Positions 31,187-49,065 of a stretch of 54,236 bases of DNA are shown here, piece by piece. The DNA comes from Prevotella sp. GTDB lineage: Bacteria > Bacteroidota > Bacteroidia > Bacteroidales > Bacteroidaceae. Position 1 is the stretch's first letter; every line of letters starts with the position of its first letter. The notes beneath the pieces are model-generated. The model saw only the letters and a list, made by a program, of their open reading frames with translations, ran no database searches and was not told the DNA's origin. A program made the position numbers and the translations under genes. The stretch covers positions 1-54,236 of the forward strand of contig JAFRPY010000089.1 in the NCBI GenBank assembly GCA_017428925.1, given 5' to 3'.

Positions 31187-31243
31187 GTAAGAAATCTATT
31201 GGGAAATCGAAATAATTGATTTATTTTGCAAACGAAACGAGAT

Positions 31244-32470
31244 ATGGACAAAAAGAATAAGGATTTAGAAATCAGTGATTCGCGCATGGTGAAGTCGCAC
31301 GACGTGAAACTGGATGCAGAATATGCAGAGTGGATAGCAGAGGTGAAACACCGCTATCGCTCGGCACAGGTGAAGGCTGCAATCAAGGTGAATGGCGAGA
31401 AACTGCTTTTCAACTGGCAGTTAGGACGTGACCTTGTGCAAAAGAAGGCTGAGGAGCATTGGGGTGCTGGTGTCGTAGAGCAAGTCAGCTTGGACTTACG
31501 ACGAGCATTTCCTAACGAGGACGGTTTTTCTACTCGTAACTTAAGGTATATGAAACAGTGGTACTTGTTCTATACTACGGAAGCGGCAAGATTGCAACGG
31601 CCTGTTGCAGAAATTATGCACCAAGCTGGTGCAGAAATGGAAAAAGGAAAATTGCACCAGGTTGGTGCAGAATTATCAGAAGAAAAAATCCACCAAGTCG
31701 GTGAAGAATTTCCATTACCTTTCGCTCTTGTTCCATGGAGGCATCACGTTGAGATAATAACCAAATCCAAGTCCATAGATGAAGCCTTGTTCTATGTGGG
31801 CAAGACTATAGAGCAAGGCCTCAGCCGTGTTGCCCTCATCAATTGTTTCAAGGCTCATCTTTATGAGCATCAGGGCAAGATAATAAACAATTTCTCAACT
31901 TACCTTCCTGAGCCGCAAAGTCATTTGGTGCAGGAAGTGCTAAAGGAGAATTATGACTTCGGCTTCGCAGCTGTTGACCATGAGCCGTTTGAAGAGCGAG
32001 AACTGGAAGAAGCCCTTACCAGCGACGTGACGAACCTCTTATTGGAGATGGGGACAGGCTTTGCTTTTATGGGCAGACAAAAGGAAATCATAGTGGGAGG
32101 TCGCTCACGAAAGATTGATTTGCTGTTCTACCATGTCCGCCTTCGTTGCTATATAGCGTGCGAAATCAAAGTGAAGCCATTCGAGCCAGAGTTTACAGGC
32201 AAGTTGAACTATTACGTTAGTGCCGTTGATGAACTGTTGAAAGCTCCTGATGACAATCCTACTATCGGCCTCCTGATCTGTTCCGATATGGATAAGACTG
32301 ATGTACAATGGTCATTCCGAGGGATTACGACTCCGATGGGAGTGGCCACCTATAACAACATCCGCATTAAGGATATGTTGCCAACCCAAGAGCAGCTGAA
32401 GGAACGGATGGAACTGCTACAGAAGGAGCTTAGGGCTACTAAACGTCTGATGAAAAAAGCAAGTGAATAA
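31244..32470 (+). CDS. DUF1016/YhcG-family PD-(D/E)xK nuclease, complete
   Basis: About 408 residues. The DUF1016 N-terminal domain covers about 20-175 (NWQLGRDLVQKKAEEHWGAG; FSTRNLRYMKQWYLFY). The nuclease-fold C-terminal domain covers about 180-360, with RKIDLLFYH and CYIACEIKVKPF giving the D...ExK residues. All are present, so activity is plausible. The linker at 31592-31705 contains 12-residue tandem repeats of the type xHQxGAExxxxK, each carrying a small DNA palindrome such as TGCACCA-AGC-TGGTGCA. The family is linked to junction processing and mobile or defence islands. Confidence 0.85.
   Translation: MDKKNKDLEISDSRMVKSHDVKLDAEYAEWIAEVKHRYRSAQVKAAIKVNGEKLLFNWQLGRDLVQKKAEEHWGAGVVEQVSLDLRRAFPNEDGFSTRNLRYMKQWYLFYTTEAARLQRPVAEIMHQAGAEMEKGKLHQVGAELSEEKIHQVGEEFPLPFALVPWRHHVEIITKSKSIDEALFYVGKTIEQGLSRVALINCFKAHLYEHQGKIINNFSTYLPEPQSHLVQEVLKENYDFGFAAVDHEPFEERELEEALTSDVTNLLLEMGTGFAFMGRQKEIIVGGRSRKIDLLFYHVRLRCYIACEIKVKPFEPEFTGKLNYYVSAVDELLKAPDDNPTIGLLICSDMDKTDVQWSFRGITTPMGVATYNNIRIKDMLPTQEQLKERMELLQKELRATKRLMKKASE
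31592..31705. repeat. Palindrome-bearing 36-bp tandem repeats in a DUF1016 linker
   Basis: Palindromic cores start at 31617, 31653 and 31689, exactly 36 bp (12 codons) apart. The first two have 7-bp perfect arms (TGCACCA/TGGTGCA) and the third is decayed. A related palindrome (TTGCAACGG..CCTGTTGCA) lies 24 bp upstream of the first. Confidence 0.75.
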
Positions 32471-34134: not shown

Positions 34135-34428
34135 ATGAGCAAGTCTGATTACATTGAAATTCTACAGGGCTGTAGCAGCACATTGCGAAACGACTGTGGC
34201 ATAAAGTCGCTTCGGCTATTTGGTTCTGTGGCACGTGGTGAAGACCACGAAGGCAGTGATATTGATGTATTCGTGGATACGGAAACTCCCAATCCCTTCT
34301 TGCTGATGGATGCCAAAGACTTTCTGGAACAACTTGTTGGGCGTTCTGTCGATATCATACGCAATCACAAAAACCTAAATCCCCGCCTGCGCAGCAGGAT
34401 AGAACGCGATGGAGTCACTGTCTTCTGA
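34135..34428 (+). CDS. MNT-type nucleotidyltransferase, antitoxin of a HepT/MNT pair
   Basis: 97 residues. The minimal nucleotidyltransferase motif is FGSVARGEDHEGSDIDVFVD, with GS at 30-31 and catalytic aspartates D42 and D44. MntA-type antitoxins silence the HepT RNase by adding AMP to it. The active-site residues are intact. The HepT gene that should follow is frameshifted and cut off, so this antitoxin appears to have no working local partner. Confidence 0.85.
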   Translation: MSKSDYIEILQGCSSTLRNDCGIKSLRLFGSVARGEDHEGSDIDVFVDTETPNPFLLMDAKDFLEQLVGRSVDIIRNHKNLNPRLRSRIERDGVTVF

Positions 34429-34551: not shown

Positions 34552-35135
34552 AAAAACACTGACACCACCGCACACCCCCGATAAACAAAGGGCTCAGGCG
34601 TGACATAACATGTGTCACCACTGACACAACACTGACACGGTTTTTAGGTGTTGGTTGATGGGTATTGGAGGTTTGTTGGGTGTTGGAGGGTGGTAAAATC
34701 TCTAGAAATTTTACGGCATTTGATGATGTTTTACAGGCCAAAGTTATCATTCGTTGCAATAAAATCTCTAGAGATTTTCGCACCCTCATTAATATTTCAT
34801 CACTCCAACACCCAATAAGCCACCAACACCTAACACCCCAAAATGTGTCAGTGGTGTGTCAGTGGTGACAGTCCGCCTGTCACGCCTGAGCCCTTTGTTT
34901 ATCGGGGGTGTGCGGTGGTGTCAGTGTTTTTCTTGTTTTTTCTGTTCAAGACAGTCTTTTTTAGATCAAAATAATATGCGAAAATTGAATTAATAATTAT
35001 GCTGCAAAGATAGACTATCCTCATCTACCCTCCAAACAAAAACCAATAACAAGCCTTGTGAAAAATAAATTTTATGGAATGATACAGTTTCTTGAAAAAA
35101 GTTGTATATTTGCAAAGTCCTAAATCAAATAGAAT
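34429..35135. other. Non-coding region: fold-back element plus AT-rich spacer
   Basis: Apart from the HepT remnant the gap consists of the inverted-repeat element at 34552-34931 and about 200 bp of AT-rich sequence carrying the promoter of the WYL gene (TATATTTG at 35105-35112). Confidence 0.6.
34552..34931. mobile_element. 380-bp fold-back (MITE-like) element
   Basis: The outer arms 34552-34605 and 34878-34931 are a perfect 54-bp inverted repeat. After 7 unpaired bases on each side come second arms (34613-34638 and 34845-34870) with one mismatch in 26 bp. The interior is also an imperfect inverted repeat rich in GTGTTGG-type heptamers, with two copies of AAAATCTCTAGAnATTTT. It has no gene. 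No target-site duplication is evident, though weak AACAGAA/TTCTGTT symmetry continues outside. It cuts off the HepT remnant. Confidence 0.8.
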
Positions 35136-36221
35136 ATGCCTGCCAAAAACATCTTTGCCGGATTTGGTGTCAGATCAGAGTTTGTTAACCTCATATACTC
35201 GGAACTGATGAAGCGCGAGTTCGTCAGTTATGCCGACATTCTCGCCCTGTATTGCAAAAGGCCAAAAGGCTATTATGAAAAGAAAGCCTGCAATCGCGAA
35301 CCAGGCTATGGCGAACTGAAAAAGGCATTTCCCGAAGTGCTGAAAGCATTGGAAAAATCTTGTCCCGGATGTATTGAGGACAACGGACAAAGCAAAGGTA
35401 AAGCATACAGATATGTTGGCGAAAGTAACGATCCGCTGTCAGAAGAGCGAAAGGCAATAGTCCAGAAATCCGTGGAAGATTATGTCTCTTTCTGTAAGGC
35501 ATCGGCAGGAATTTTGCCTGCAAGCTGGTTCTCTTCATTCTTTGAGAATACCCAATTACTGCTTGACACGAACAAGGACACCCAAGAAGGAAGAGTTCCT
35601 ATTATCTCAGGTTTAGAACAGAATCTTACCAATATCGATTTGTTGCCTGTATTCTATAAAGCCATTGCCAACGAGCAGGTTTTGCGATTCTCTTATCAGC
35701 GATTTGGCCAGAAGCCATTCGAACTTATCTTCCATCCGCAGTTCCTGAAGGAATACAATGGCCGCTGGTTTGTCTTCGGTGAAGCAAATCGCGAACCTTA
35801 CAAGGCATACAATGTTCCATTGGACAGAATCGTCGGGAAACTGGAGACTGTAGAGGGCGTCGAGTATATTCCTGCCGAGAAAGGATTCTATCAACAGTTC
35901 TTTAAAAATATCATTGGTGTTACCCACGAAAAAGATGCCAAAGTGGAAACGGTGGTTATCAGAACCAAAACGGAATACCAGCATGGTTTGCTGTTGACAA
36001 AGCCCCTGCATCATTCCCAGAAAGAAACGCTGCCCTTTGGCGAACATGATTGCCAATGGTACGGCGAGGTCACACTGACGATAGAACCCAACCGTGAACT
36101 GCGAGGTAAAATCATGCTTTATGGCGAAAACTTAGAAGTAATGCAGCCTCATCCATTAAGAGAGAAAATCAAGGAGATTCTCGCAAAACAATTAGAAAAC
36201 TATAGCAATATAAAAGAATAA
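35136..36221 (+). CDS. WYL-domain protein, probable transcriptional regulator
   Basis: 361 residues. The N-terminal part (about 1-150) should hold a winged-helix-like DNA-binding region. The WYL domain is at about 165-255 (NEQVLRFSYQRFGQKPFELI; FHPQFLKEYNGRWFVFGEAN) and the WCX-like C-terminal part runs to the end. WYL proteins regulate defence and DNA-damage loci in many bacteria, with ligands thought to be nucleic acid or nucleotides. The operator shared by the three units downstream is absent from this gene's own promoter. It lies 4 bp before a broken DUF1016 gene. Confidence 0.85.
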   Translation: MPAKNIFAGFGVRSEFVNLIYSELMKREFVSYADILALYCKRPKGYYEKKACNREPGYGELKKAFPEVLKALEKSCPGCIEDNGQSKGKAYRYVGESNDPLSEERKAIVQKSVEDYVSFCKASAGILPASWFSSFFENTQLLLDTNKDTQEGRVPIISGLEQNLTNIDLLPVFYKAIANEQVLRFSYQRFGQKPFELIFHPQFLKEYNGRWFVFGEANREPYKAYNVPLDRIVGKLETVEGVEYIPAEKGFYQQFFKNIIGVTHEKDAKVETVVIRTKTEYQHGLLLTKPLHHSQKETLPFGEHDCQWYGEVTLTIEPNRELRGKIMLYGENLEVMQPHPLREKIKEILAKQLENYSNIKE

Positions 36222-36225
36222 GATC

Positions 36226-37025
36226 ATGGATACGAATACCGAACAACTCTCAATCATAGCAGAAGGATGGTTGCATAAAGATACCCCAACCTTTGATGAA
36301 CTATCAACATCTATTCTTCAGACCCACCAGTCAGCACAGGCCAATGCCATTAAAGCCGTCAACCAGATGGCAACCCTCCGCAACTGGCTGATAGGCTGTT
36401 ACATTGTGGAGTATGAACAGAAAGGCAGCGACAGGGCGAGATATGGTGAAAGATTGCTGAAACGGCTGGAGGAAAGAGTAAACACCAAGGGACTGAACGA
36501 GACATTGTTTCGTAACGCCAGGACTTTCTATCAAATATATCCTCAAGTATCATTGCTGTTTGAGAAAAGTGCGACGTCGTCGCACAAATTGGCTACAGGA
36601 ATTCATCCGATGCCATCGGATGAATTGGAAACACTTCCTGCTATAATTCATCCGACGGCGTCGGATGAATTCATCACATCCCCAAAATCATTGGTAGAAA
36701 AGCTGTCTTTCTCGCATATCACTGAAATCATGACTCAAAAAGACCCTCTCGCCCGTTTCTTCTACGAAACAGAATGCATCAAGGGAACTTGGTCGGTCAA
36801 GGAACTGCGTCGCCAGATTTCCACTAACCTCTATTTCCGCAGCGGAGTCAGCAAAAATCCCCAAAGATTGTTGAGTACTATCAAATCCGAAACAAACACG
36901 CCTGTACTAACTATCCGTCAGCCCTTCACTTTCGAGTTCGTAGGACTGAATGCAAATTACCCGACAAGGCGACGTTAGAGAAGTTTTTGATAGACGAAAC
37001 GGAAAAGGGAATAAAACATGATTAA
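36226..37025 (+). pseudogene. DUF1016/YhcG gene with the nuclease domain deleted
   Basis: The open frame codes 250 residues: the DUF1016 N-terminal domain (RNWLIGCYIVEYEQKGSDRA; NETLFRNARTFYQIYP), a linker, the start of the C-terminal domain (PFTFEFVGLNAN), then a frame change to NYPTRRR and stop. In the next frame the sequence LPDKATLEKFLIDETEKG continues to 37025, which looks like the extreme C-terminus of the family. The catalytic segment between is missing, so an internal deletion removed the nuclease core. The linker carries three perfect palindromes (36569-36585, 36601-36625, 36646-36670). Confidence 0.7.
36569..36670. repeat. Three perfect palindromes in a DUF1016 linker
   Basis: 36569-36585 is GTGCGAC-GTC-GTCGCAC. 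36601-36625 and 36646-36670 each have 12-bp arms around one base (ATTCATCCGATG and ATTCATCCGACG with their complements), with starts 45 bp apart. They remain in the reading frame. Confidence 0.85.
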
Positions 37026-37041
37026 CCGTAACATCCAAAAC

Positions 37042-37112
37042 GGTTCCATGGAGAACGGAACCGTTCATGAGGCAGAAATGCTTGCAGCAATCGAAAATCG
37101 GTTGTACCTTTG
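37042..37112 (+). promoter_or_regulatory. Operator and promoter, copy 1 (upstream of the HsdM-like kinase)
   Basis: GGTTCC (37042-37047), 5 bp, GAACGGAACCGTTC (37053-37066), 15 bp, TTG (37082-37084), 20 bp, TACCTTTG (37105-37112). Every spacing is identical in copies 2 and 3. The operator sits upstream of the -33 element, a position typical for activators. Confidence 0.85.
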
Positions 37113-37172
37113 CAACGCACTTGAGACACAGGTGCATAACATAGAGTACTAACCAACAAATACAGAAAAACT

Positions 37173-39794
37173 ATGCAGAACGTACAAAACGCAACAGAGA
37201 TCCAGCAGAGAGTGATTAACCTCGTAGAGCTTTACCGCACTAAGGTGGGTCGGGAGAGTCAGATAGCAAAAGAAGCAAAGGCCGAATGGGATTTCTGGAT
37301 GCAATCATCAGTTGACATGATGTCCATTGAAAGCATGGTCGGAGGTATCTATGGCGAAGGGCCACACACCGAGGAATGGATTAAGCATTTGATGGTCAAT
37401 GAACAGTTACTTGGACATTTCTATGCTGAGGTAGCTGGAGATAACGCTGACAAAGACGTTCTTGCGGAATTGTTGCCAAATGTCTATGACAGGACAATAT
37501 TCACGAAAGAGGATGAGAGCTTCTTGAAAAATCATTTCAAGGAGATGGTGAATTATATTATACTAACTCCATGTGATGAAAGCCTAGTATATGTTCATCG
37601 TGACGATCGTAAGGATATAATAACAATTCCTGATGAAGTTCTTGAGTTCATTAATTCTCGCATAAAGGTTCCTACTGGCTCTCAAATTTACAATCCATAT
37701 ACAGGCTATGCTCAATTTACAAGCCTGTTTAAAGGTTGCAAGTTTTTCTGTGATGACAAAAATCCATGGATGCAAGTGGCTATTTATGCAAATGAAGTTG
37801 ATGCCGAATTCGTTGCCAACGATTTCGTACCATCCTCATATAATGCCGTTGTCTCTTATCTCTATGAGAGTTCAGACGATGATAATAAAATGTCTGCTCA
37901 CCTATGTGAATCATATAAAAATCTAAACTCTGGAGGCGTCATGGTATTACTATGCCCTCCAAGAATCCTTACCGACAAAGTGCATTCCTCTTTTAGGAAG
38001 ATGCTAATTGAAGACAAGGCAATAAAAGAGATTATCCAACTACCCCAAGTTATGGGCAATGATGGCGATTCTTATTGTTTATTGATAGCAGAAAAGGGGC
38101 GCCATGATAAGCATGTGACCCTAATTGACGCTCGGGTGGCAAGTGAGGAATTGAATTCAAGGCATTATATGCTTTCGTTTAATATTGCTAAGTTCGATGC
38201 TATCATGGAAAATGACGGCATTGATCCTAATACGGGATTGAGAAAAATGGTGAAAGTATCTTCAGAAGTATTATCACCGGATATTCTCATACCACAAGTA
38301 TATGTGATAGAAAGACCATCTGAAACAGAACATCCTGTTCCATTGTCAACATTATGCTCTTTAGTAACGAAAAGAGTTCGGGATGTGCAATTCGATTTGC
38401 CAGAAGACACCCCGTTGATAGCCATGAGTGACTTAACGCCATTATACACTGGTGATTTAGATACTTCCAATATAAAGAAGGCAAATTGTCCTAACAACCC
38501 CTCTTATGTTGAAGGTAGTAAGGACTATGCTTTTGATGATAATGGAAAATTTGTTGATTCTATATGGGCTCAAATGTATACAAAGAAAGGACATGATGCC
38601 TTGTCTTACAGAAAGAGTACCTACATTGATGGCAATAACGATACGGTTCTATATGCGCGTTCTCAAGATGATACGATTTGCGCTCTATTTGAACGCTCTA
38701 TTAATTATTGGGTTAAAGTAGCGATAGTTCGCACAACAGGTTACCCGTATGCTGTTAGTAGTGGTATCCTTGCTTTCTGTCCTAAGGATAATTATGATGC
38801 TAACTCGTTGGCTGCTCTTTTAAGATTGCCTATTGTTTATAGACAATTAATCACATATCAAGAACATGGTATTGACAACCATTTAGATGATATACTTGTT
38901 CCTACAGACAAGCGTGTCATTGGCGACGAACTAAATCGTATGAAGAGAGAAGAGTCTGTCACTAACGATTTGGAAGATAAAGTTCAAGCAATGAAGACAG
39001 AGTATATTAACGAGGTAAGGATGCGCAAGCATGACATACGTCCACATTTACGCCAGTTAGCATCTTCAGAGCGATTGATGCTCCACTATATTGACAATGC
39101 AAACGACATGGAAGAGCTGAAGAATAATTTGAAAAGTCAGCTTGAGCATAGCCATATTGCTTTATCAAGCATATCTACCATTGTCGACCACTTAAGCGAT
39201 GAAGAGAAATTTGGGGAGCCTGAGATTCTTAACATTGACGGCATTCTTTCTGGCATTGAGGTGAATCATGATGATAGTGAAGGATTTGTTATCAAGTATG
39301 ATTGCAATGAGGACTCTTTCCGAAATCGTGGTATTTCAATACCAAATATTGATGAACAATGGGAAATGGCGAGAGAGCGTGGACTTGATATTGTCAAGTT
39401 CATAAAAGACAAGTCTCAAGAAGAACTACCATTGTTCATAAACATTGCTTCTGTTGACTTCCAACGAATGGTGTCCAACATAATAGAGAATGCACGTAGG
39501 CATGGCTTTACGGACATGAGACGAGGAGACTATTACATTGGAATCGAGTTGTCATACAATTCTGAACGAGATATGTATCAGATAGATTTCACTAATAACG
39601 GTAACCTCCTCCCTGAGGGAATGACAAAAGCCCGTTATGGTATCAAGGGTGATAAAGCCGGTCTTGCAGCAGGGTCTGGTTCTGGGGGTTATATAGTCAA
39701 GTCCATAGTGAATCACTATGGTGGTGACTATGACGTATTTTGTAAAGATGGAATTACAACAATAAGAATACTATTACCAATCGTAACAATATGA
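37173..39794 (+). CDS. Hybrid sensor: HsdM-like methyltransferase fold + HsdS-like target-recognition region + histidine kinase
   Basis: 873 residues. Residues 1-165 are helical like the HsdM N-terminus. At 170-320 is a methyltransferase-like fold in which motif I is NPYTGYAQF (usually DPxxGxGxF) and motif IV is YNAVVSYLYE (usually NPPY/F), so catalysis is doubtful. The strand-helix pattern GGVMVLLCPPRILTD and IKEIIQLPQ is typical HsdM. Residues 388-580 resemble an HsdS target-recognition domain (HPVPLSTLCSLVTKR; YPYAVSSGILAFCPKDN). After a coiled coil comes a kinase: phospho-acceptor H620 in RKHDIRPHLRQL, N box SNIIENARRHGF (768-779), G1 DFTNNG (805-810) and G2 GSGSGG (834-839). It overlaps the regulator gene by 4 bp. 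There are no membrane segments. Confidence 0.8.
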   Translation: MQNVQNATEIQQRVINLVELYRTKVGRESQIAKEAKAEWDFWMQSSVDMMSIESMVGGIYGEGPHTEEWIKHLMVNEQLLGHFYAEVAGDNADKDVLAELLPNVYDRTIFTKEDESFLKNHFKEMVNYIILTPCDESLVYVHRDDRKDIITIPDEVLEFINSRIKVPTGSQIYNPYTGYAQFTSLFKGCKFFCDDKNPWMQVAIYANEVDAEFVANDFVPSSYNAVVSYLYESSDDDNKMSAHLCESYKNLNSGGVMVLLCPPRILTDKVHSSFRKMLIEDKAIKEIIQLPQVMGNDGDSYCLLIAEKGRHDKHVTLIDARVASEELNSRHYMLSFNIAKFDAIMENDGIDPNTGLRKMVKVSSEVLSPDILIPQVYVIERPSETEHPVPLSTLCSLVTKRVRDVQFDLPEDTPLIAMSDLTPLYTGDLDTSNIKKANCPNNPSYVEGSKDYAFDDNGKFVDSIWAQMYTKKGHDALSYRKSTYIDGNNDTVLYARSQDDTICALFERSINYWVKVAIVRTTGYPYAVSSGILAFCPKDNYDANSLAALLRLPIVYRQLITYQEHGIDNHLDDILVPTDKRVIGDELNRMKREESVTNDLEDKVQAMKTEYINEVRMRKHDIRPHLRQLASSERLMLHYIDNANDMEELKNNLKSQLEHSHIALSSISTIVDHLSDEEKFGEPEILNIDGILSGIEVNHDDSEGFVIKYDCNEDSFRNRGISIPNIDEQWEMARERGLDIVKFIKDKSQEELPLFINIASVDFQRMVSNIIENARRHGFTDMRRGDYYIGIELSYNSERDMYQIDFTNNGNLLPEGMTKARYGIKGDKAGLAAGSGSGGYIVKSIVNHYGGDYDVFCKDGITTIRILLPIVTI

Positions 39795-40972
39795 AGACAA
39801 AGTATGAGGTCATTTGGATAGATGACGAATGGGAGAAAATGGATCAATTCAAAAAAGAGTGTGAAGTGATTCATCAGATATATCTTCATCCGTTCCCAAC
39901 ACAAAAGGCGGGAATGGATGAGTTTGATAAAAATCCAAAGAAATGGGATGCTATCATTTTAGACGCAAAACTTGAAAAAGATGGAGTTGGAGTAACAGGA
40001 TTACGTGAGGCTGTGACACACATTAATCAAATCTCACTAAGTCACAAGATTCCATATTTCATTTCTACAGGTCAACCTGATTTGATGGGTAACGAAACAT
40101 TCGAACAGGCATTTGGCAAATACTATATTAAAGAGCAGGATGATCAAAGACTTATTGAGGATATAAAAGAAATCGCAAGTAAGTCTACTAGGTTCCAAGT
40201 AAAAAACAAATATTCGGATGCGATAGAAGTGCTTGAGACGATTGATGAATGGTGCTGCGAAAAGATCCTCGACATATTGGAAGCAATGCATTTCCCAGAA
40301 AAAAAAATTGATCCTTTGCTCTATTATAACCCTTTAAGGCAAACTTTGGAGTACATCTTTAGAAAAGCAAATAAAACCAGCATCATTCCAGACGAATTTA
40401 TCGGAAAAACTAAGGATGATGTCAATTTGAACCAATGCGTACAGTTCCTTTCGGGGGGTAATGCTGACTGGATTGGTATTCGTTTTGGTGGAGCAAAAGA
40501 AAGTATTGTTCCTGTTCACATTAAGAATATGATGTTTCAAGTACTTAATCTTGGCAACATCAACTCACATTCAAGAACGTTGAATGATGATGAACAAAAG
40601 AAGTTGGGCTCGTATTTCAAAGAAAATGTATGCAATTCTCTGTATCTCATTTATAGCCTTGCCTTGCAAATATGTGAGATAGCAGTTTTTATGGGTAAAT
40701 ATATATCAGCCCATATGGATTCTGCTGAGAACAAAAGACAGTGCAAAACTTTTGGCACTATAGAAAAGATAGAAGGGAATGAGTCAATCTGCATTGTTAA
40801 AAGTAAGAGGCCAGGACGAGAATCTTGCATCTGCATATCAGCAAAGGATGCAATTAGCAAACAACTCATTGGCAAAAAGATTGTTGTCTTAGAAGAGTCG
40901 GAAAACACTAATTCTGCGATAAAAGCAGAATATCCATATTCTGCTGTCAAAATCCAATCTTTAGAGAAGTAA
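39791..40972 (+). CDS. Response regulator with unknown output domain (partner of the HsdM-like kinase)
   Basis: 393 residues. The receiver domain (1-125) has acidic D11, D12 and E13, phospho-acceptor D58 (AIILDAKL), T93 (FISTGQ) and K114 (YYIKEQ), all intact. Residues 130-310 are helical and unlike known output domains. The C-terminal part (about 325-393) is beta-rich with FGTIEKIEGNESICIVK and ends in LIGKKIVVLEESENTNSAIK. The regulator encoded at 42384 ends in a related segment. The ATGA overlap with the kinase gene implies coupled translation. No helix-turn-helix is recognised, so DNA binding is not shown. Confidence 0.8.
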   Translation: MKTKYEVIWIDDEWEKMDQFKKECEVIHQIYLHPFPTQKAGMDEFDKNPKKWDAIILDAKLEKDGVGVTGLREAVTHINQISLSHKIPYFISTGQPDLMGNETFEQAFGKYYIKEQDDQRLIEDIKEIASKSTRFQVKNKYSDAIEVLETIDEWCCEKILDILEAMHFPEKKIDPLLYYNPLRQTLEYIFRKANKTSIIPDEFIGKTKDDVNLNQCVQFLSGGNADWIGIRFGGAKESIVPVHIKNMMFQVLNLGNINSHSRTLNDDEQKKLGSYFKENVCNSLYLIYSLALQICEIAVFMGKYISAHMDSAENKRQCKTFGTIEKIEGNESICIVKSKRPGRESCICISAKDAISKQLIGKKIVVLEESENTNSAIKAEYPYSAVKIQSLEK

Positions 40973-40975
40973 ATC

Positions 40976-41046
40976 GGTTCCTAGTAGAACGGAACCATTC
41001 ATGACTTTGAAATCCTTGTTATTATCGACAATTGGTAGTACTTTTG
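40976..41046 (+). promoter_or_regulatory. Operator and promoter, copy 2 (upstream of the HsdS-like kinase)
   Basis: GGTTCC (40976-40981), 5 bp, GAACGGAACCATTC (40987-41000), 15 bp, TTG (41016-41018), 20 bp, TACTTTTG (41039-41046). One base differs from copy 1 in the second arm. Confidence 0.85.
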
Positions 41047-41083
41047 CAAACGAAATAAAGTTTAATTTTAATTTTTGATTGTT

Positions 41084-42370
41084 ATGAGTAATCTTCGCAG
41101 TAGTCTGAGTGTGATTAATTTTGAGAAGTTTGGTGAGACTAAAGGTAAGGTGTTCACCGCTGATAATTTTGCAAAGGACTGGGATTCAATCTATGTCATT
41201 CCAGCTGAACTCTCTGATGGAATCGTAAATGACCAAGCCTTCCACAAAGTGGATCGAAAGGCACTTGTATTGGATATGAAGAATCCCCGTATGGCTTACG
41301 TGATTGCTAATCAGGATAGCCCTGTCTTTGTGCCAGCAGCTCGTTTTGACAAAACTGCTGAGGGTAAGTATGTGGGTAAAGGCTTTTTGATTTTTAGTCT
41401 TGATTTCACTATCCTGCTTCCTGAGTTCGTGTTTTTTCTATGCAGACAAGGCTTTTGGGAGAAGTTACTCAATCGTCGCGATTATTCCCTTTATTTTGAA
41501 ATAGTTGATTTTCCCATCACATTGGAGGGATGTTTCCTGACTGAAATGGGTGACACTCCTGGAGCATCTTTAGGATATGAGATTCCTTCTTTGTCACAAC
41601 AGAGAGAGAAGATAACAGCATTCAAGGCTGAAGAAAAATACCTTGATGATATTGTGGCATCAAAAGAGCGGAAAATGCTCAAGAAGACTTCTTCTGATCT
41701 AAACCACATGATGGGTACTCCCTATATCCGCATCAATAATGCACTGGAACTTCTTTCTCAGGATGTAGATGAAAAAGGGAAGTCGCGGATTAAATACATC
41801 CGAGACAACTTCGGATATATCAAACGCCTAATTGAGATGAATGGTGCCAATTTCAATGATTACCCAAAAGCTAAGGTAAACATTGTTGATTTTATGGAGC
41901 GATACATACAGGGATGGGAAAACTATGGTTCCAAGACCTTCTCTATAGAATTCTATTATGATGGCGATTTTAAAGGGGAAAATACCATTCTTGCCAACGA
42001 AACTGCTCTCGCTATTATGATGGACTGTCTGCTTGACAATGCCAATAGACATGGATTCCATAAAATGAGTTCTCCAGATAACAAAGTCAAGATACATCTT
42101 GACCGCGCCACAATTGGTAATGAGAACGCTGTCATTATAGCCGTAGGTAATAATGGAAAGCCGATGCCTAAAGACTTTAGCATTGACGATTACATTACCT
42201 CTGGAAAGTTCGGTACTGATACTGGCCGCTCAGGGCTTGGTGGCAGTCATGTATATAAAATCGTTTCATCTATGGATGGTACTCTTGACTTTATAAGCGA
42301 AGCGGTTTCATCTGCGGAAAAAAATGAATGGTGGACAACATTCATGATTACCGTTCCTTTAGTGTTGTAA
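41084..42370 (+). CDS. Histidine kinase with an HsdS-like N-terminal segment
   Basis: 428 residues from the ATG at 41084. Residues 1-195 resemble half of a type I specificity subunit: a recognition-domain-like region (VFVPAARFD, then FLIFSLDFTILLPEFVFFLC) followed by YEIPSLSQQREKITAF, close to the conserved IPxPxxxxQxxI end of HsdS domains, and a helix like the HsdS spacer. The kinase part has H208 in SSDLNHMMGTPYIRI, N box MDCLLDNANRHGF (313-325), G1 VGNNGKPMP (354-362) and G2 GRSGLGGSHV (381-390). No membrane segment is present. The regulator gene starts 13 bp later. The HsdS relationship is judged by pattern only. Confidence 0.78.
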   Translation: MSNLRSSLSVINFEKFGETKGKVFTADNFAKDWDSIYVIPAELSDGIVNDQAFHKVDRKALVLDMKNPRMAYVIANQDSPVFVPAARFDKTAEGKYVGKGFLIFSLDFTILLPEFVFFLCRQGFWEKLLNRRDYSLYFEIVDFPITLEGCFLTEMGDTPGASLGYEIPSLSQQREKITAFKAEEKYLDDIVASKERKMLKKTSSDLNHMMGTPYIRINNALELLSQDVDEKGKSRIKYIRDNFGYIKRLIEMNGANFNDYPKAKVNIVDFMERYIQGWENYGSKTFSIEFYYDGDFKGENTILANETALAIMMDCLLDNANRHGFHKMSSPDNKVKIHLDRATIGNENAVIIAVGNNGKPMPKDFSIDDYITSGKFGTDTGRSGLGGSHVYKIVSSMDGTLDFISEAVSSAEKNEWWTTFMITVPLVL

Positions 42371-42383
42371 TTTAATTTTTTCT

Positions 42384-43547
42384 ATGGATAAGATATATCG
42401 GATTATATGGGCTGATGATGAAATCGATGCTTTGCTGGATGAAAACAGCAAGGCATTGATTTCGCAACATCATGTTGAGGTCGTAAAATGCTATAATGCT
42501 GCTATGTTAGAAGAGAAGTTAAGAAATACTTCTCATCGCATTGATGCAGTAATTGTCGATGCTAACTTTACGGCAAAGGATTATACTCCCTCAGTCGAAA
42601 CAGATGTTTCTGGTTTCAGAAGAGCAAGGGGGTTGATAGGTGAATACAGGCATTTGCCTTTCTACCTCTACACACAACGTGGTAATCTATCAGACCTCGT
42701 CGATGAAGATGAGCTGACTTATTTCAAAGACAATAATGCCATATTATTCAAAGGAGATAATCTATCCCCATTGCTTGACAGGATAAAGAATGATGTTGAC
42801 AAAATCAATAGTGCAGAATTCCAGATAGATAATCAGTTTAAAAATGAACTCTTTTGCTGTAAGATATTCGATAATCATTGCAATGGAGATTCTTATAATA
42901 TTATCCGTTCCCTCCTTATAAAGAATCAAGAGAATGACCTGCAAAATTCTGAAAAACATCTCAATGAGTTTCGAACGTTGTTTGAGAATATGAACACAAT
43001 AGCAGCAAACTTCGGGATCGTACCAGAAAAACTGTCCCTAAATGAATTTAGCAAGTTCTTATGTCGAAACAAAGATTCAAAATATCATGTTAATGAGGAT
43101 ATTCTTCCTAAAGCTCTATACGAAATTCTATTTTATGTAATCAGGTTGGTTCAAGATGGTTCACATGATAGTTCTGACTTGCAATATAAGATTCGCCGTT
43201 ATATACGCGATACGCAAGATGTGCTTATAATTCGTTCAATATTATTTGCAGTAATAGAAATCATAACATGGTTCACGCGCTACGTTGAAGAGCATCCAGA
43301 TAAGGAGGAGAATCTAAGGAAATTCATTAAAGTTGAGAATATAAGAGATGATGAACCTGAAGGAATAATAGAACAGGACGAAAAAGGCTACTGCCATATT
43401 GACAACAAATATTCTGTTCTTATTAGGAACAGGGAATTGATAGGCAAAAAAGTCAAAATATTGAATTCCAAAGAGAATACCAGTAGTAGTACTAAGAAAT
43501 ACTACCCACTCTTCGTCCGTGAGGAGGATTTACAATTATTAGAATAG
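42384..43547 (+). CDS. Response regulator with unknown output domain (partner of the HsdS-like kinase)
   Basis: 387 residues. Receiver (1-135): D11, D12, E13, phospho-acceptor D59 (AVIVDANF), T97 (LYTQRG) and K123 (ILFKGDN) are intact. The middle part (about 150-310) is helical. The C-terminus (ELIGKKVKILNSKENTSSS, then KKYYPLFVREEDL) parallels that of the regulator at 39791 (LIGKKIVVLEESENTNS, then AEYPYSAVKI), so the two are paralogs with the same output end. No known DNA-binding fold is visible. The gene pair is probably a duplicate of the upstream pair with a reduced sensor. Confidence 0.8.
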   Translation: MDKIYRIIWADDEIDALLDENSKALISQHHVEVVKCYNAAMLEEKLRNTSHRIDAVIVDANFTAKDYTPSVETDVSGFRRARGLIGEYRHLPFYLYTQRGNLSDLVDEDELTYFKDNNAILFKGDNLSPLLDRIKNDVDKINSAEFQIDNQFKNELFCCKIFDNHCNGDSYNIIRSLLIKNQENDLQNSEKHLNEFRTLFENMNTIAANFGIVPEKLSLNEFSKFLCRNKDSKYHVNEDILPKALYEILFYVIRLVQDGSHDSSDLQYKIRRYIRDTQDVLIIRSILFAVIEIITWFTRYVEEHPDKEENLRKFIKVENIRDDEPEGIIEQDEKGYCHIDNKYSVLIRNRELIGKKVKILNSKENTSSSTKKYYPLFVREEDLQLLE

Positions 43548-43555
43548 CCGTAATC

Positions 43556-43626
43556 AGTTCCAAGTAGAACGGAACCGTTCACAAGGTTGTTTTTCTTGCT
43601 ATGTTGCAGAAATCACCTTAACTTTG
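43556..43626 (+). promoter_or_regulatory. Operator and promoter, copy 3 (upstream of the helicase unit)
   Basis: AGTTCC (43556-43561, one change from GGTTCC), 5 bp, GAACGGAACCGTTC (43567-43580), 15 bp, TTG (43596-43598), 20 bp, TAACTTTG (43619-43626). Confidence 0.85.
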
Positions 43627-43665
43627 CAGCGTCAATCATCGATACCACCTCGTGATTGATGCTGC
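43626..43665 (+). promoter_or_regulatory. Hairpin at the 5' end of the helicase-unit transcript
   Basis: GCAGCGTCAATCA (43626-43638) pairs with TGATTGATGCTGC (43653-43665), 13 bp including one G-U pair, with a 14-nt loop. It begins at about the predicted transcription start and ends 38 bp before the ATG. Confidence 0.5.
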
Positions 43666-43703: not shown

Positions 43704-44150
43704 ATGAACAACACTGCTCTTCAGACCATCGTAGCAAAAAGACTTCCTGCCCTCTCGGGTGAGTCGATAACATATAACGCTGCCAAGAATGTGTTTCTGT
43801 CGCAGGGATATACCAGTGCTGCGGGGAATATGTACTACAAGGCTATTCGGTTGTCGAATAGGCTGATGATTTATTACGACCTGGGGCAAGGCTACAAATA
43901 TACTTTCCTGAATGGCATCAAGTTGTTCTGCTGGGATGGGCAAAAGGCAAAACTCATTGCCCAGAAATACTGGGGCGGTTACGACTACCAGGTATTCGAC
44001 GAGCAGTTCGCCAAAGACGAGAGTATTCTGATACTGAGTAACTTCCTGGCAGCACAACTGAAAGCGCAGGGCGGGTGTGTCAGCAACCGGGAAATATACG
44101 CTTTCGCCAGTAATATGATTGAGGAGACTCATCAGAGACAACTAGCGTGA
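43704..44150 (+). CDS. Small protein of unknown function, paralog of the next gene
   Basis: 148 residues, not recognised. Its central segment (YYKAIRLSNRLMIYYDLGQ, then TFLNGIKLFCWDGQKAKLIAQK) aligns by eye with the next protein (YYLGIRFCDRIVIVEKVG, then TYIDGIEIYAFNGQKMELIQKR), so the two are homologs. Both look like small alpha/beta proteins with no signal peptide. It is the first gene after operator copy 3. The pair sits directly before a PIF1-like helicase, which suggests accessory subunits or inhibitors of it. This is inference from gene order. Confidence 0.65.
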   Translation: MNNTALQTIVAKRLPALSGESITYNAAKNVFLSQGYTSAAGNMYYKAIRLSNRLMIYYDLGQGYKYTFLNGIKLFCWDGQKAKLIAQKYWGGYDYQVFDEQFAKDESILILSNFLAAQLKAQGGCVSNREIYAFASNMIEETHQRQLA

Positions 44151-44235: not shown

Positions 44236-44742
44236 ATGGCAACACTGACCAAAGCAATCAACAAGAGTCTGTTTGACAGCATCCTGCCGTCATTCGGAAA
44301 TCCCCGGGTACACATTCCAATCTGGGATAACAGCCAGAAGATGTTCATCTGCGATGAATACGAGAGTGGCAACGGACACCGCTACTACCTCGGCATCCGC
44401 TTCTGCGACCGAATCGTCATCGTAGAGAAAGTGGGACTGTTTCACGACTGGACTTACATCGACGGCATCGAAATCTATGCCTTCAACGGGCAGAAGATGG
44501 AACTGATCCAAAAGCGGGACTACGATAAGGTGTTCCGCAACGAGGACTTCATCCGCCAGGAATCGGAGCAGATGGTGAAGGACTATCTCTCGGGCGTGAT
44601 GAAAGCCCAGCGTATCTGCATTCCTGCAGAGCAGATTGCAGCACAGGCTTCTGAACTGGTCAGCGGCTGCTACAAGAGTTTCCTTGACTCTGACTTCAAC
44701 ACACGTTTAACCCAAATACTTCCAAAACTCGAACAGCGATAA
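44236..44742 (+). CDS. Small protein of unknown function, paralog of the preceding gene
   Basis: 168 residues, not recognised. Shared core with the preceding protein: RYYLGIRFCDRIVIVEKVG and DWTYIDGIEIYAFNGQKMEL. The C-terminal half is helical (QESEQMVKDYLSGVMKAQR). It ends 2 bp before the helicase ATG, so translation is probably coupled. Base composition is higher in G+C than in the kinase genes upstream, which suggests the helicase unit and the kinase unit had separate histories before coming under the same operator. Confidence 0.65.
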   Translation: MATLTKAINKSLFDSILPSFGNPRVHIPIWDNSQKMFICDEYESGNGHRYYLGIRFCDRIVIVEKVGLFHDWTYIDGIEIYAFNGQKMELIQKRDYDKVFRNEDFIRQESEQMVKDYLSGVMKAQRICIPAEQIAAQASELVSGCYKSFLDSDFNTRLTQILPKLEQR

Positions 44743-44744
44743 CT

Positions 44745-46793
44745 ATGGAACAGATACAGATTGACAAGGAGAACAAGCAGCAGGTGCTTGCCTACGAACT
44801 GATTGCTAACACCAACAGCAGTTTCTTTCTCACAGGCCGTGCCGGAACTGGTAAAACTACCTTCCTGCGCAAGGTACAAAAGTTGGTGGATAAGCAATTC
44901 ATCACGCTGGCTCCTACGGGAGTGGCTGCCATCCTGGCGGGTGGCGATACGATTCATTCGTTCTTCGGACTGCCAATGGATGTTTGCTATCCCGGAACGA
45001 TGGGCAAGATGAACGAGGCTCGCATCCAGACTTTGCTGCATACGGACACCATCATCATTGACGAGGTGTCGATGGTGCGCTGTGACATCATTGATGCCAT
45101 CGACTACACGATGCGGAAGACGTTGCGCTCTTCGCTGCCCTTTGGAGGTAAGCAAGTCATCTTCGTGGGCGATATGTTTCAGTTGCCGCCGGTGATTGCA
45201 AGGAAGGAAGAGCGTGAGTTGATGCATGACCTCTATCAGGCAGACGACTGCTTTTTCTATAAGGCAGATGTCATCAAGCGGATGCGGTTGGTGAAGATTG
45301 AGTTTCAGAAAGTGTACCGTCAAGACGACAAGCAATTCCTCGATATACTGGAAGATGTTCGCCTCAACAAGGTGACACCGGAGGACTTGATGCACCTGAA
45401 CCGTCGTGTCTGTCAGCCTACGAAGGAGGACGGAATGGTGATTACACTGGCATCCCGCAACAGCACGGCAGATGCCATCAACGAAAAGTGCCTCGCCGAG
45501 ATTGATTCGGAGGAGTATATCTATGAAGGAACCGTACAGGGGAAGTTTGAGGAAAAACGTTTCCCGGTGGAAATGACGATGAGGCTGAAGGTGGGTGCAC
45601 AGGTGATGTTTACCCGCAACGACCAGCATAAGCGCTGGGCTAACGGCACTTTGGGGAAAGTCACAAAGCTCGCAAAGGACGAGATACAGGTGACAACCAA
45701 TGCTGGCGAAACCTATGTCGTGCCTAACTGTTCGTGGGACTCTGTGACATACGAATACGACAAGGAGGCCAAGAAACTAAAGAAGGAGGTAACGGGCACG
45801 TTCACCCAATATCCCCTGAAGCTGGCTTGGGCCATTACGGTACACAAGAGCCAGGGCATGACATTTGAAAAGATGTCGCTCGACTTGAGCAAAGGCATGT
45901 TTGCTGCCGGTCAGCTCTATGTCGCTCTGAGTCGTGTGCAGTCTTTGGACGGTTTGTTCCTGTCCAAAGGCATCATCCCCCAATATTGTCATACCAACAG
46001 GGAAGTGCTGTCGTATGCTAACGGCTATAACGACGAGCAGGTGATCAACAACGAGATAGAGAGCGGAAAAGCTGTATATCAGTTGTTAAGTCACTACAAC
46101 TACGACGAGGCAGCCAAGCAGTACCTATTACTGGTGCTGAAAAAGGCTGAAAGTGGCGACATCAAGGAAGCCATACAACAGGCTAAGCGGTTTCTTGATA
46201 CCGTTATCTGTGACGAGAATCTGTTTGGCTGCATCAGTGAGATACCGGCATCGCTGATGGAGGCAGACCACTGGGCACCCAAGTTTCTAGTGGCATTGCT
46301 CAGTCTTTATGCGGGAAAATATGAACAAGGGTTGGAGTATGTCAATAGCGTGCTTTCACAACATCAGTGCCAGGAAGCACTCTACGTGAAGTCACGTTGT
46401 CTGACCAAGCTGGAACGGTATCAGGAGGCTGATGCAGTAAACGTGCTGATGGGTGATGTGTTCGACATGTCAACACCCGATTGCAAGGTACTCTATTCGA
46501 TAGCCATGCTCAACGAACTGCACGTCGGAGATCCTGGACTAAACCTGATGCAGCAGTTGATAGCAGCAAGACCGAAGTACGACAAGGCCATTCTTTCACT
46601 CCGCGAGTTGATGAAGCGGAAAGGGATGGTACTGGTGAAGACTTCTAACGAGCCGCGTGAACTGGTAGATGACTTCAACAGCGACATGCCGGAAAAGGAG
46701 TTTGCCCAGAAGTTGCAAACGGCTCGCGAGAAGGCCCCCAAGGCTGTAGAGTATCTTCGCCGAACAATCAGGCGGCAGGAATTCGCGGGATAA
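44745..46793 (+). CDS. PIF1-like superfamily 1 DNA helicase
   Basis: 682 residues. Walker A is GRAGTGKTT (31-39), then APTGVAA (motif Ia), Walker B IIIDEVSMV (about 103-111), GDMFQLPPV (motif III), and the C-terminal motifs TVHKSQGMTFEKM and YVALSRVQSLDGLFL. This is the Pif1/RecD2-like 5'-3' helicase set, complete. After about residue 450 comes a helical TPR-like region (KVLYSIAMLNELHVGDPG and similar). PIF1-like helicases resolve G-quadruplexes, forks and recombination intermediates. It is the third gene of the operator-3 unit. Confidence 0.88.
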   Translation: MEQIQIDKENKQQVLAYELIANTNSSFFLTGRAGTGKTTFLRKVQKLVDKQFITLAPTGVAAILAGGDTIHSFFGLPMDVCYPGTMGKMNEARIQTLLHTDTIIIDEVSMVRCDIIDAIDYTMRKTLRSSLPFGGKQVIFVGDMFQLPPVIARKEERELMHDLYQADDCFFYKADVIKRMRLVKIEFQKVYRQDDKQFLDILEDVRLNKVTPEDLMHLNRRVCQPTKEDGMVITLASRNSTADAINEKCLAEIDSEEYIYEGTVQGKFEEKRFPVEMTMRLKVGAQVMFTRNDQHKRWANGTLGKVTKLAKDEIQVTTNAGETYVVPNCSWDSVTYEYDKEAKKLKKEVTGTFTQYPLKLAWAITVHKSQGMTFEKMSLDLSKGMFAAGQLYVALSRVQSLDGLFLSKGIIPQYCHTNREVLSYANGYNDEQVINNEIESGKAVYQLLSHYNYDEAAKQYLLLVLKKAESGDIKEAIQQAKRFLDTVICDENLFGCISEIPASLMEADHWAPKFLVALLSLYAGKYEQGLEYVNSVLSQHQCQEALYVKSRCLTKLERYQEADAVNVLMGDVFDMSTPDCKVLYSIAMLNELHVGDPGLNLMQQLIAARPKYDKAILSLRELMKRKGMVLVKTSNEPRELVDDFNSDMPEKEFAQKLQTAREKAPKAVEYLRRTIRRQEFAG

Positions 46794-47626: not shown

Positions 47627-48193
47627 ATGGAAAAAGAGCAGAATTCATACATCTCCTCTGCAAGCGTAAAGGAGCAAGGCAGGACAGCATACTACAAGAT
47701 GTTGGAGAGTGTACGGCAGGGCGAACTCATTCAGGTGCGCCGTGGTGTGTATGCTAATATTGACCAACTTAGCGGAAACATGATTGACATCAACGCGATT
47801 GTTCCAGACGGTATACTTTGTCTGTGGTCGGCATGGAGCATTCACCAGCTTACCACCTCTATGCCGCAGGCTTTTCATGTGGCCATCAAAAGAAACAGGA
47901 AGGTAACTGTACCGTCATTTCCAAAAGTTGAAATTCACCATTACACGGAGACTATACTGGCTTTGGGGGTGATGAGAATGGAGATTGATGGCTTCAACAT
48001 CCAGCTATATAATGTAGAGCGTTGTGTGTGTGATGCTGTGAAGTTTCGAAATAAGGTGGGATTGGATGTATGTTCCGAAATCATTGACAAATACCTGAAA
48101 CGTACAGACAGAAATCTGAGCTGTCTGATGGACTATGCTCGAAAGCTCCGAGTGGGTACCATACTCGAACAATATTTGCAAGTAAAACTATGA
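47627..48193 (+). CDS. AbiEi-type antitoxin (type IV toxin-antitoxin)
   Basis: 188 residues. The N-terminal winged-helix-like part (about 1-60: YYKMLESVRQGELIQVRRGV, then YANIDQL) is followed by the AbiEi C-terminal domain (GILCLWSAWSIHQLTTSMPQ; VKFRNKVGLDVCSEIIDKYL). In the AbiE system the antitoxin binds DNA and the pair causes phage-triggered abortive infection. It overlaps the toxin gene by 4 bp (ATGA) and follows an inverted-repeat promoter. The assignment rests on the pair as a whole. Confidence 0.85.
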   Translation: MEKEQNSYISSASVKEQGRTAYYKMLESVRQGELIQVRRGVYANIDQLSGNMIDINAIVPDGILCLWSAWSIHQLTTSMPQAFHVAIKRNRKVTVPSFPKVEIHHYTETILALGVMRMEIDGFNIQLYNVERCVCDAVKFRNKVGLDVCSEIIDKYLKRTDRNLSCLMDYARKLRVGTILEQYLQVKL

Positions 48194-49065
48194 AAAAGGA
48201 ACAGACCAAAAACTACGGAAAGTCCATACGTAGCAAACTTCTGAACATTGCTAAAAAGGAGGATGTCTTCTATCAAACCATCCTCACGCGTTTTTTTCAG
48301 GAGCGACTGCTATACAGAATATCGCAGACGAAATACCGCAGCAATTTCTATCTGAAAGGGGGAGCATTAATGTATGCTTATGAGAAATTTGCTGCCCGTC
48401 CCACGTTAGATATTGACTTGTTGGGCTGCAATATCAGCAACGAGGGAACGGTTATCATTGCAGCTTTCAAGGAGATTTGCTCTGTGCTATACGAAGAGGA
48501 TGGTATTAAGTTTGACACTGACAATATTACTGCCCAGAACATCACGGAGTTCAAGGACTATCATGGCATCCGGCTGAGCATTCCTGTGACGATGGATACT
48601 ATTGCACAGGTGTTGACGATGGATATCGGATTTGGTGATGTCGTCACACCCAGCCCAATAGCTCTTGACTATCCGGTACTCCTGGAACAACTGCCTGGCG
48701 TGAATATCATGGCCTATTCGCTTGAAACGGTCATAGCAGAGAAGATGCATGCCATAGTGGATCTTGCCGACCAAAGTAGTCGCATGAAGGACTATTATGA
48801 TCTGTATTACATCCTGTCGAAAGGGAATTATGACAGGGATACGTTGCAGGATGCCATCACACGTACATTTGAGAACAGGCATACCTCATACGATGCTAAC
48901 ACCATGTTCTTCCGTAAGGCCTTTGCCGATAATCAGCAAATGCAGGCTCGATGGCAGGCTTTCTTGCATAAAATCAGAAAAAATGTTGATGTCACGTTTG
49001 CAGATGTCGTAGTTTACATTCAGAATGAGTTGCGCCCATATTGGGAAAAATTGTCGCATAAATAA
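48190..49065 (+). CDS. AbiEii/AbiGii-type nucleotidyltransferase toxin
   Basis: 291 residues. The nucleotidyltransferase signature is LKGGALMYAY (55-64) followed by RPTLDIDLLG, with catalytic D74 and D76. A later LETVIAEKMHAIVDL segment holds the conserved lysine, and RMKDYYDLYYIL is also typical. All four family motifs look intact, so the toxin is probably active. The relic at 7627-7766 may have come from the same broad family. The gene is translationally coupled to its antitoxin. Confidence 0.9.
   Translation: MKKEQTKNYGKSIRSKLLNIAKKEDVFYQTILTRFFQERLLYRISQTKYRSNFYLKGGALMYAYEKFAARPTLDIDLLGCNISNEGTVIIAAFKEICSVLYEEDGIKFDTDNITAQNITEFKDYHGIRLSIPVTMDTIAQVLTMDIGFGDVVTPSPIALDYPVLLEQLPGVNIMAYSLETVIAEKMHAIVDLADQSSRMKDYYDLYYILSKGNYDRDTLQDAITRTFENRHTSYDANTMFFRKAFADNQQMQARWQAFLHKIRKNVDVTFADVVVYIQNELRPYWEKLSHK

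Follow-up and report, generated by a model that had tools for sequence, protein, structure and literature searches.

What does a protein do in which a histidine kinase is preceded by modification and recognition regions like those of a restriction enzyme? The question is raised by a 54,236-nt stretch of Prevotella sp. DNA (assembly GCA_017428925.1, contig JAFRPY010000089.1; hereafter the window), in which a sequence-only reading had picked out one such gene, P0002, followed by the gene of a response regulator, P0004. According to our analysis P0002 is probably the sensor kinase in a mobile cassette that controls restriction and other defence systems, and it is predicted to act as a clamp that reads the state of DNA and signals by phosphotransfer. 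We give even odds to the fuller proposal that a non-methylating dimer of HsdM and target recognition domain (TRD) senses DNA state or viral mimics, as part of a modular switch exchanged horizontally among restriction and nuclease systems. The two genes are:

37173..39794, + strand: sensor kinase P0002, a single protein of 873 aa
39791..40972, + strand: cognate response regulator P0004, overlapping the P0002 gene by 4 bp

P0002 comprised an HsdM-like part (residues 51-380), an HsdS-like half (ca. 388-578), a dimerization and histidine phosphotransfer (DHp) helix (580-642) and a catalytic and ATP-binding (CA) domain (ca. 680-872), and this three-part architecture was supported by profile search as well as by the structural model, in agreement with the sequence-only reading. 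The HsdM fold was recovered, as the model matched HsdM chains from structures that include Ocr or ArdA (7eew, 7bto, 2y7c), and profile search of the sensor half returned HsdM and HsdS matches. Only one segment of TRD length (profile positions 400-574) preceded the DHp helix, in place of the two TRDs and coiled coil of an HsdS. In the alignment A6 (19 rows, two from the window), HATPase_c was found in 19 of 19 rows, N6_Mtase in 15 and Methylase_S in 10 (E-value up to 0.1). Among the relatives, whose loci are numbered with the prefix L, the L053 protein matched N6_Mtase (1.4e-41), Methylase_S (0.004, below cut-off) and HATPase_c (1.4e-6), and the L054 protein matched MTase_I (3.3e-39, residues 48-398) and Specificity_I (1.8e-11, residues 401-608). 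No membrane part was annotated in P0002 by the domain searches.

The predicted DHp hairpin consists of helices 580-642 and 647-672, the first of which carries H620, invariant in 19 of 19 rows; the CA domain matched HATPase_c (2.8e-7), with N773, N808, G810, G836 and G838 equally invariant, and HK853 was matched by the kinase part in both profile and fold. P0004 was divided into a receiver (ca. 1-130), a helical output domain (ca. 133-320) and a C-terminal beta domain (333-390). Its receiver residues D12, D58 and K114, described as intact in the sequence-only reading, were invariant in 20 of 20 rows, as were R183 and H260 of the output domain. Kinase and regulator distances co-varied (Mantel r 0.63, p 0.0005, n 17) over the 17 loci in which an HsdM gene lies directly behind the regulator, genome relatedness being uncorrected in this and the further Mantel tests. 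Because of the invariant kinase and receiver residues and this co-variation, phosphotransfer between P0002 and P0004 is strongly implied at the level of sequence.

The methyltransferase half reads NPYTGYAQF at motif I and YNAVVSYLYE at motif IV, confirming the changes noted earlier, and neither (N/D)PP(Y/F) nor DPxxGxG is present. Motifs were counted in 30 of 34 family proteins (omitting L035, L036 and two proteins under 600 aa, and including the kinase-less L070) against 23 HsdM-like proteins drawn from these same loci. The Asp of motif I was kept in 2/30 family members versus 23/23 HsdM, the Asn of motif IV in 6/30 versus 23/23, the acid of motif II (after strand 2) in 27/30 versus 23/23, and that of motif III (after strand 3) in 27/30 versus 13/23; the acids after strands 2 and 3 contact S-adenosylmethionine in this enzyme class. 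Many family members have their own motif near YNPFAGLASF instead of the classical motif I, and the changes look like a coherent signature and not like decay. An active solitary DNA methylase, tuned or reported by its kinase, is suggested by the six relatives retaining the motif IV Asn, five of which read NPPF or NPPL (L053, L054, L055, L058, L115). Against this, 24 of 30 lack that Asn, 28 of 30 lack the motif I Asp, and P0002, with the motifs given above, belongs to the members most altered at motif IV, which makes such an enzyme very improbable; P0002 is probably without DNA methylation activity.

The hypervariability of HsdS was absent from the kinase TRD, which was 74-88% identical in the five closest pairs with a mean of 65% over 10 pairs that share at least 38% identity overall. 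It was as conserved as the rest of the protein. In comparison, three pairs with HsdM of 75-91% identity had HsdS proteins that were only 35-41% identical. A matched specificity, in which the kinase TRD would resemble the neighbouring HsdS TRD, was tried on 10 loci by permuting own-locus HsdS TRDs with those of other loci and was not supported (summed score 217.5 versus 200.4 +/- 14.3 permuted, p 0.12). As the kinase TRD is conserved and bears no special likeness to the HsdS at the same locus, the sensor probably reads something constant and not the specificity of its neighbour. For the same two reasons, and as some cassettes precede systems in which no methyltransferase gene was seen, the methylation sensing offered by the sequence-only reading found no support.

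The same conservation is used by the main rival explanation, an integrated decoy (guard), in which the HsdM-HsdS-shaped part would bait DNA-mimic anti-restriction proteins (Ocr, ArdA). A recognition domain conserved and not diversified is what a generic type I bait would be expected to have; most catalytic residues are lost, but the fold persists, as do the acids of motifs II and III, the model matches the Ocr and ArdA complexes listed above, though these are simply HsdM structures, and the partner effectors are diverse, including those with no methyltransferase gene seen. However, a fixed DNA site fits equally well, and Ocr and ArdA bind active type I enzymes too. We consider such a bait unlikely, and equally doubtful its further step, in which the bound anti-restriction protein would trigger the kinase and thereby raise or switch the defence.

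The family included 43 distinct loci besides the window, one of them (L070) without a kinase. In total 44 loci were seen outside the window, of which L140 was left uncounted as a duplicate of L092; L061 and L078, although 99.6% identical, come from different records and were both counted. The home genome has a second cassette on contig C38, on one strand in the order WYL, kinase (807 aa), regulator (424 aa), HsdM (675 aa, NPPYG intact), HsdS and HsdR, with 24% identity of its kinase to P0002 and 27% of its regulator to P0004. As this genome is a draft (85% complete, 5.4% contamination, 122 contigs), it is likely, not certain, that the window and C38 cassettes belong to one organism. On the closed Myroides plasmid pFM-G13 (three records, 43,223 bp) the kinase lies upstream of HsdM, HsdS, a PLD protein and HsdR, the cassette being annotated as 'N-6 DNA methylase' plus 'hypothetical protein', and a family operon with HsdM-, HsdS- and HsdR-like genes was found on a contig from human faeces labelled 'Bacteriophage sp.' (UNVERIFIED). 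The draft state of the genome could have pointed to an assembly or gene-calling fusion of separate genes, which the sequence-only reading had named as a way to be wrong; this is already refuted by the recurrence of the architecture on a second home-genome contig, in the 43 further loci and on the closed plasmid of three records, leaving it a negligible chance.

A regulator profile of three sequences had matches in 12 of 393 genomes from the order, and its 14-row extension in 13 of 395 genomes sampled across the phylum; both counts include the home genome. In the other genomes the kinase adjoined the regulator in 20 of 23 regulator-found loci (10/11 and 10/12), the first ten of these kinases having also built the kinase profile. 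The kinase was missing beside the regulator in L037 and L146, which have unrelated neighbours, and in L144, where a 763-aa HATPase_c protein with a different N-terminus (L144:6759-9050) precedes the family regulator; therefore, other sensor types may use family regulators. A WYL gene adjoined the kinase in 7/10 and 5/10 of the regulator-found loci, with one ORF between the two in L032 and with divergent orientation in 3 of the second sample's 5. P0002 as a single sequence gave zero matches in plasmids, phages, genome_contigs and viral_contigs, and at E 1e-20 in the 393 genomes it found the home genome only. When genome_contigs (84,980 species) was scanned with a WYL alignment, the best 80 of at least 586 confirmed matches were kept, among which 21 loci, linked to WYL through the way they were found, hold a family member; all 21 named loci are from Bacteroidota-type genomes, in a family search that started from Bacteroidota sequences.

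Variants of the cassette were also seen. In L035:3381-5615 a family kinase has an HNH domain (Pfam HNH 1.2e-4) replacing the methyltransferase half, and its relative L036:4762-6963 aligns with it across the HNH region. A small gene of helix-turn-helix (HTH) type directly precedes the WYL gene at L134:5260-5514 and L045:9734-9979 (copies 61% identical), and a 67-residue stretch just upstream of the WYL gene in L011 is 55% identical to the L134 HTH-like protein.

Behind the cassettes were type I HsdM-HsdS-HsdR operons, and also McrBC, Pif1, Schlafen-type and UvrD helicase genes. HsdM directly followed the regulator in 7/20 regulator-found kinase loci (1/10 and 6/10) and in 17 of all loci seen, one of them in the home genome, and for this reason the cassette seems to control systems that cut. 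Of the earlier phrase 'phosphotransfer instead of cutting', the phosphotransfer is retained as implied above, whereas 'instead of cutting' holds for the window only, whose module has no HsdR, as had been stated.

Such adjacency invites another explanation, holoenzyme docking, by which the HsdM/HsdS-like part would contact HsdR or the restriction complex encoded next to it; the kinase would then read or control assembly, without any DNA recognition of its own. In its favour are the 7/20 loci and the C38 operon order. However, kinase and HsdM distances did not co-vary (r 0.10, p 0.17), nor did those of regulator and HsdM (r 0.08, p 0.22) or of kinase and HsdS (r 0.155, p 0.13, n 15), when HsdM and HsdS were correlated (r 0.26, p 0.008, n 15). 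Closely related cassettes also adjoin HsdM of low identity: between L054 (Saprospiraceae) and L058 (Bacteroidales) the identities are 73% for WYL, 68% for the kinase, 81% for the regulator, 29% for HsdM and 24.5% for HsdS. As other cassettes, including that of the window, have no HsdM neighbour at all, docking appears less probable still than the decoy. Conversely, L055 and L135 have HsdM of 91% identity and kinases of 38%, and between L055 and L053 the sensor is 54-60% identical with the kinase half down to 23%. By the identities of the pairs L054/L058 and L055/L135 the effector appears to be swapped behind a common switch, or the switch before a common effector, and kinase and regulator appear as a mobile cassette, often with a WYL regulator, that is found with unrelated effector systems.

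Under the favoured reading of P0002 as a DNA-sensing kinase, two kinase subunits would pair through the DHp bundle, placed where HsdS has its spacer coiled coil, and the two methyltransferase-plus-TRD arms would thereby form a symmetrical clamp resembling a type I enzyme. The ligand of the clamp would be fixed, most probably a site or a state of DNA (occupancy, methylation), and would be bound without being methylated. Occupancy of the clamp would alter the DHp coiled coil and change the autophosphorylation of H620, the phosphate would pass from H620 to D58 of P0004 and change the activity of the output domain, and the regulator output together with the WYL protein would adjust the linked defence genes in expression or activity.

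The two genes belong to a longer module in the window:

35136..36221, + strand: regulator with a WYL domain, at the head of the module (Pfam: WYL above cut-off at 1.9e-6, WCX below it at 2.2e-4)
36226..36978, + strand: truncated DUF1016 (PDC-S02-like) ORF between the WYL gene and the kinase (Pfam DUF1016_N 2.3e-26)
41075..42370, + strand: second sensor kinase P0005 (HATPase_c 2.1e-9), no methyltransferase half
42384..43547, + strand: second response regulator P0006, of the P0004 family
43704..44150, + strand: small gene behind operator copy 3, unknown
44236..44742, + strand: small gene, unknown (weak NCBIfam TenpIN 0.011, far below cut-off)
44745..46793, + strand: Pif1-like helicase (PIF1 1.1e-33)

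The WYL product also matched PADLOC WYL (9.5e-19). The DUF1016 ORF, which matched PADLOC PDC-S02 (3.9e-50, profile positions 10-197 of 351), is probably a remnant outside the conserved cassette. The first small gene product gave zero matches in Pfam, PADLOC and NCBIfam, and the second zero in Pfam and PADLOC (E-value up to 1). P0005 has a related central region and a histidine kinase and covers positions 372-773 of the family profile with 373 bits, being itself one of the 13 sequences that built that profile; P0006 is 24% identical to P0004 over nearly full length (E-value 4e-19). The same set occurs in L049, which comes from an uncultured Prevotella; there the kinase, likewise without a methyltransferase half, is 83% identical to P0005, the regulator 64% to P0006 over 311 residues and Pif1 43% to that of the window, and the WYL gene directly precedes the kinase. 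Because of this match the window may be read as two related cassettes side by side, with one WYL gene heading both. The window Pif1 was 39-43% identical to those behind the cassettes of L049, L061, L066 and L078, and a Pif1-like helicase is a recurrent downstream partner of the cassette.

A 79-nt direct repeat was found in three copies, each upstream of a transcription unit:

37037..37115, + strand: promoter/operator copy 1, 57 nt before the P0002 start; GGTTCC-N9-GGAACC, then CTTG-N20-TACCTTTG
40971..41049, + strand: promoter/operator copy 2 (76% identity with copy 1), lying 25 nt upstream of P0005; GGTTCC-N9-GGAACC
43551..43629, + strand: promoter/operator copy 3 (62% identity with copy 1), lying 74 nt upstream of the first small gene; AGTTCC-N9-GGAACC

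All three copies contain the inverted repeat GTTCC-NNGNAGAAC-GGAACC followed by CTTG-N20-TAnnTTTG, the latter fitting the Bacteroidetes promoter consensus, and the inverted repeat is centred ca. 53 bp upstream of the -7 box, a place that would suit an activator. The exact core pattern, derived from the three copies themselves, occurred three times in the 3.56 Mb genome, all in the window; one more match at two mismatches and nine at three did not rise above the backward control (9 matches). The pattern was not found upstream of the window WYL gene with up to 4 mismatches allowed. Through this predicted common operator/promoter, the three transcription units (first kinase and regulator, second kinase and regulator, small genes with Pif1) would form a small dedicated regulon. 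In the loci of 25 relatives, where intergenic stretches of 45 nt or more were searched, repeats elsewhere were present in three (L027, L048, L093), none directly preceding a kinase gene. The cassette is flanked on either side by a 47-nt direct repeat in L093 (2227-2273 and 12387-12433) and by a 39-nt one in L048 (103-141 and 7746-7784), which are possibly attachment sites or common promoters of an island.

The surroundings of the module look like a defence island. A 54-nt perfect inverted repeat with 272 nt between its arms and further nested inverted repeats (34552-34931), just upstream of the WYL gene, forms a large hairpin, perhaps an element resembling a miniature inverted-repeat transposable element, and two 27-nt palindromic repeats lie inside the truncated DUF1016 ORF (36600-36671). 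A 414-aa defence-type protein (31226-32470) is 82.5% identical to an L038 protein and similar to proteins also matched by the DUF1016 ORF. An MntA-like antitoxin nucleotidyltransferase is encoded at 34135-34428 (NCBIfam 9.2e-12, 44.8 of 60 bits, below cut-off). The gene pair at 47627-49065 (188 and 291 aa), with side-by-side counterparts in L056 (49% and 44% identical), presumably resembles an AbiEi/AbiEii-type toxin-antitoxin pair.

The output domain of the regulator was approached through its relatives. The C-terminal beta domain is S1/CSD-like in some P0004 relatives. A DUF4145/HEPN-like output domain was considered and dropped because only 3/20 regulators matched DUF4145 weakly (best 0.012) and the HsdR beside the C38 paralogue did not match it. 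In the PDB fold comparison the match list was filled by receivers, so that the output domain was barely probed. In L070:7525-9972 a methyltransferase-TRD part is joined directly to the output and C-terminal parts of the regulator, with no kinase and no receiver (family profile 64-527, regulator profile 113-306). This fusion may be seen as a natural short circuit, which supports a predicted signal path from sensor to output.

Several observations weigh against P0002 as a DNA-sensing controller of defence. The central part of its recognition domain (residues 438-513) was poorly modelled, with pLDDT below 50, and Pfam did not detect Methylase_S in P0002 by itself. No HTH was recognised in the regulator. 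Upstream of WYL in 11 loci no 9-mer was shared by more than 3/11, and no repeat like that of the window lay directly before kinase or effector genes in the loci of the 25 relatives. Co-variation of kinase and WYL was weak (r 0.17, p 0.11, n 14), that of regulator and WYL being r 0.30 (p 0.02, n 14), and WYL was undetected beside the kinase in 8/20 regulator-found loci, of which L030 and L145 begin at or near a contig end and where ORF picking can miss WYL, as in L070; because of the weak co-variation and these eight loci, WYL may be a looser partner of the cassette. Finally, the reading is built from sequences, profiles and models.

Among known systems, P0002 is closest in its first half to the type I restriction-modification methyltransferase (HsdM2-HsdS; EcoR124I, EcoKI), from which it differs as one polypeptide with one TRD, in its degenerate catalytic motifs, histidine kinase C-terminus and conserved, not hypervariable, recognition domain, and in that the window module is without the HsdR present beside the C38 paralogue. 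With HisKA-type pairs (HK853-RR468) it shares the DHp with H620 and the N and G boxes, and P0004 the receiver Asp and Lys, whereas the input is a restriction methyltransferase-specificity unit and the output helical. MADS combines type I-like proteins with a kinase, its kinases being separate proteins of Ser/Thr type. PADLOC mad2 and mad5 matched the methyltransferase and specificity parts of L054 (1.4e-21 and 1.4e-10), and mad2 matched P0002 weakly (1.4e-4), but NCBIfam MAD2 stayed far below cut-off in L053 (18.4 of 720 bits) and was not among the listed matches of P0002 (E-value up to 1). Detocs uses two-component phosphotransfer in anti-phage defence and is not known to include a methyltransferase; no PNP-type effector was found among the matches of ten window proteins, and no Detocs model among their listed PADLOC matches (2023 library, which may not hold one). 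PorX resembled P0004 structurally in the receiver only, and no PglZ domain was among the Pfam matches of P0004. CapW is a WYL regulator of defence islands, and the cassette, headed by a WYL gene, is like BrxR, CapW and RptR in this respect; those are one-component, and here a kinase and a regulator are added. In the accessible parts of the respective papers, BrxR is described as dampening transcription of the BREX operon (PMC12707154), RptR is termed a repressor of restriction-modification systems (PMC12255303), and the BREX study (PMC12707154) mentions a fusion between a Schlafen RNase and a minimal histidine kinase.

To our knowledge, P0002 would be the first kinase with a DNA methyltransferase-specificity unit as its input domain. 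In line with the earlier remark that no such system had been described, an HsdM-histidine-kinase protein was not described among the matches listed in open-access full text (preprints and most subscription papers lying outside this scope), and the accessible portions of PMC12839542, PMC12707154, PMC10952713 and PMC7641849 contained no mention of an HsdM kinase. Both the regulators with an S1/CSD tail and the fusion in L070 suggest an output domain that is as yet uncharacterised. How restriction systems switch on only when it is safe, and how an attack on restriction is sensed, are open questions, which a horizontally exchanged cassette standing beside several unrelated nuclease systems makes testable. 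If the proposed role is true, the family may also serve as a starting point for engineering sensors that respond to DNA sequence or methylation.

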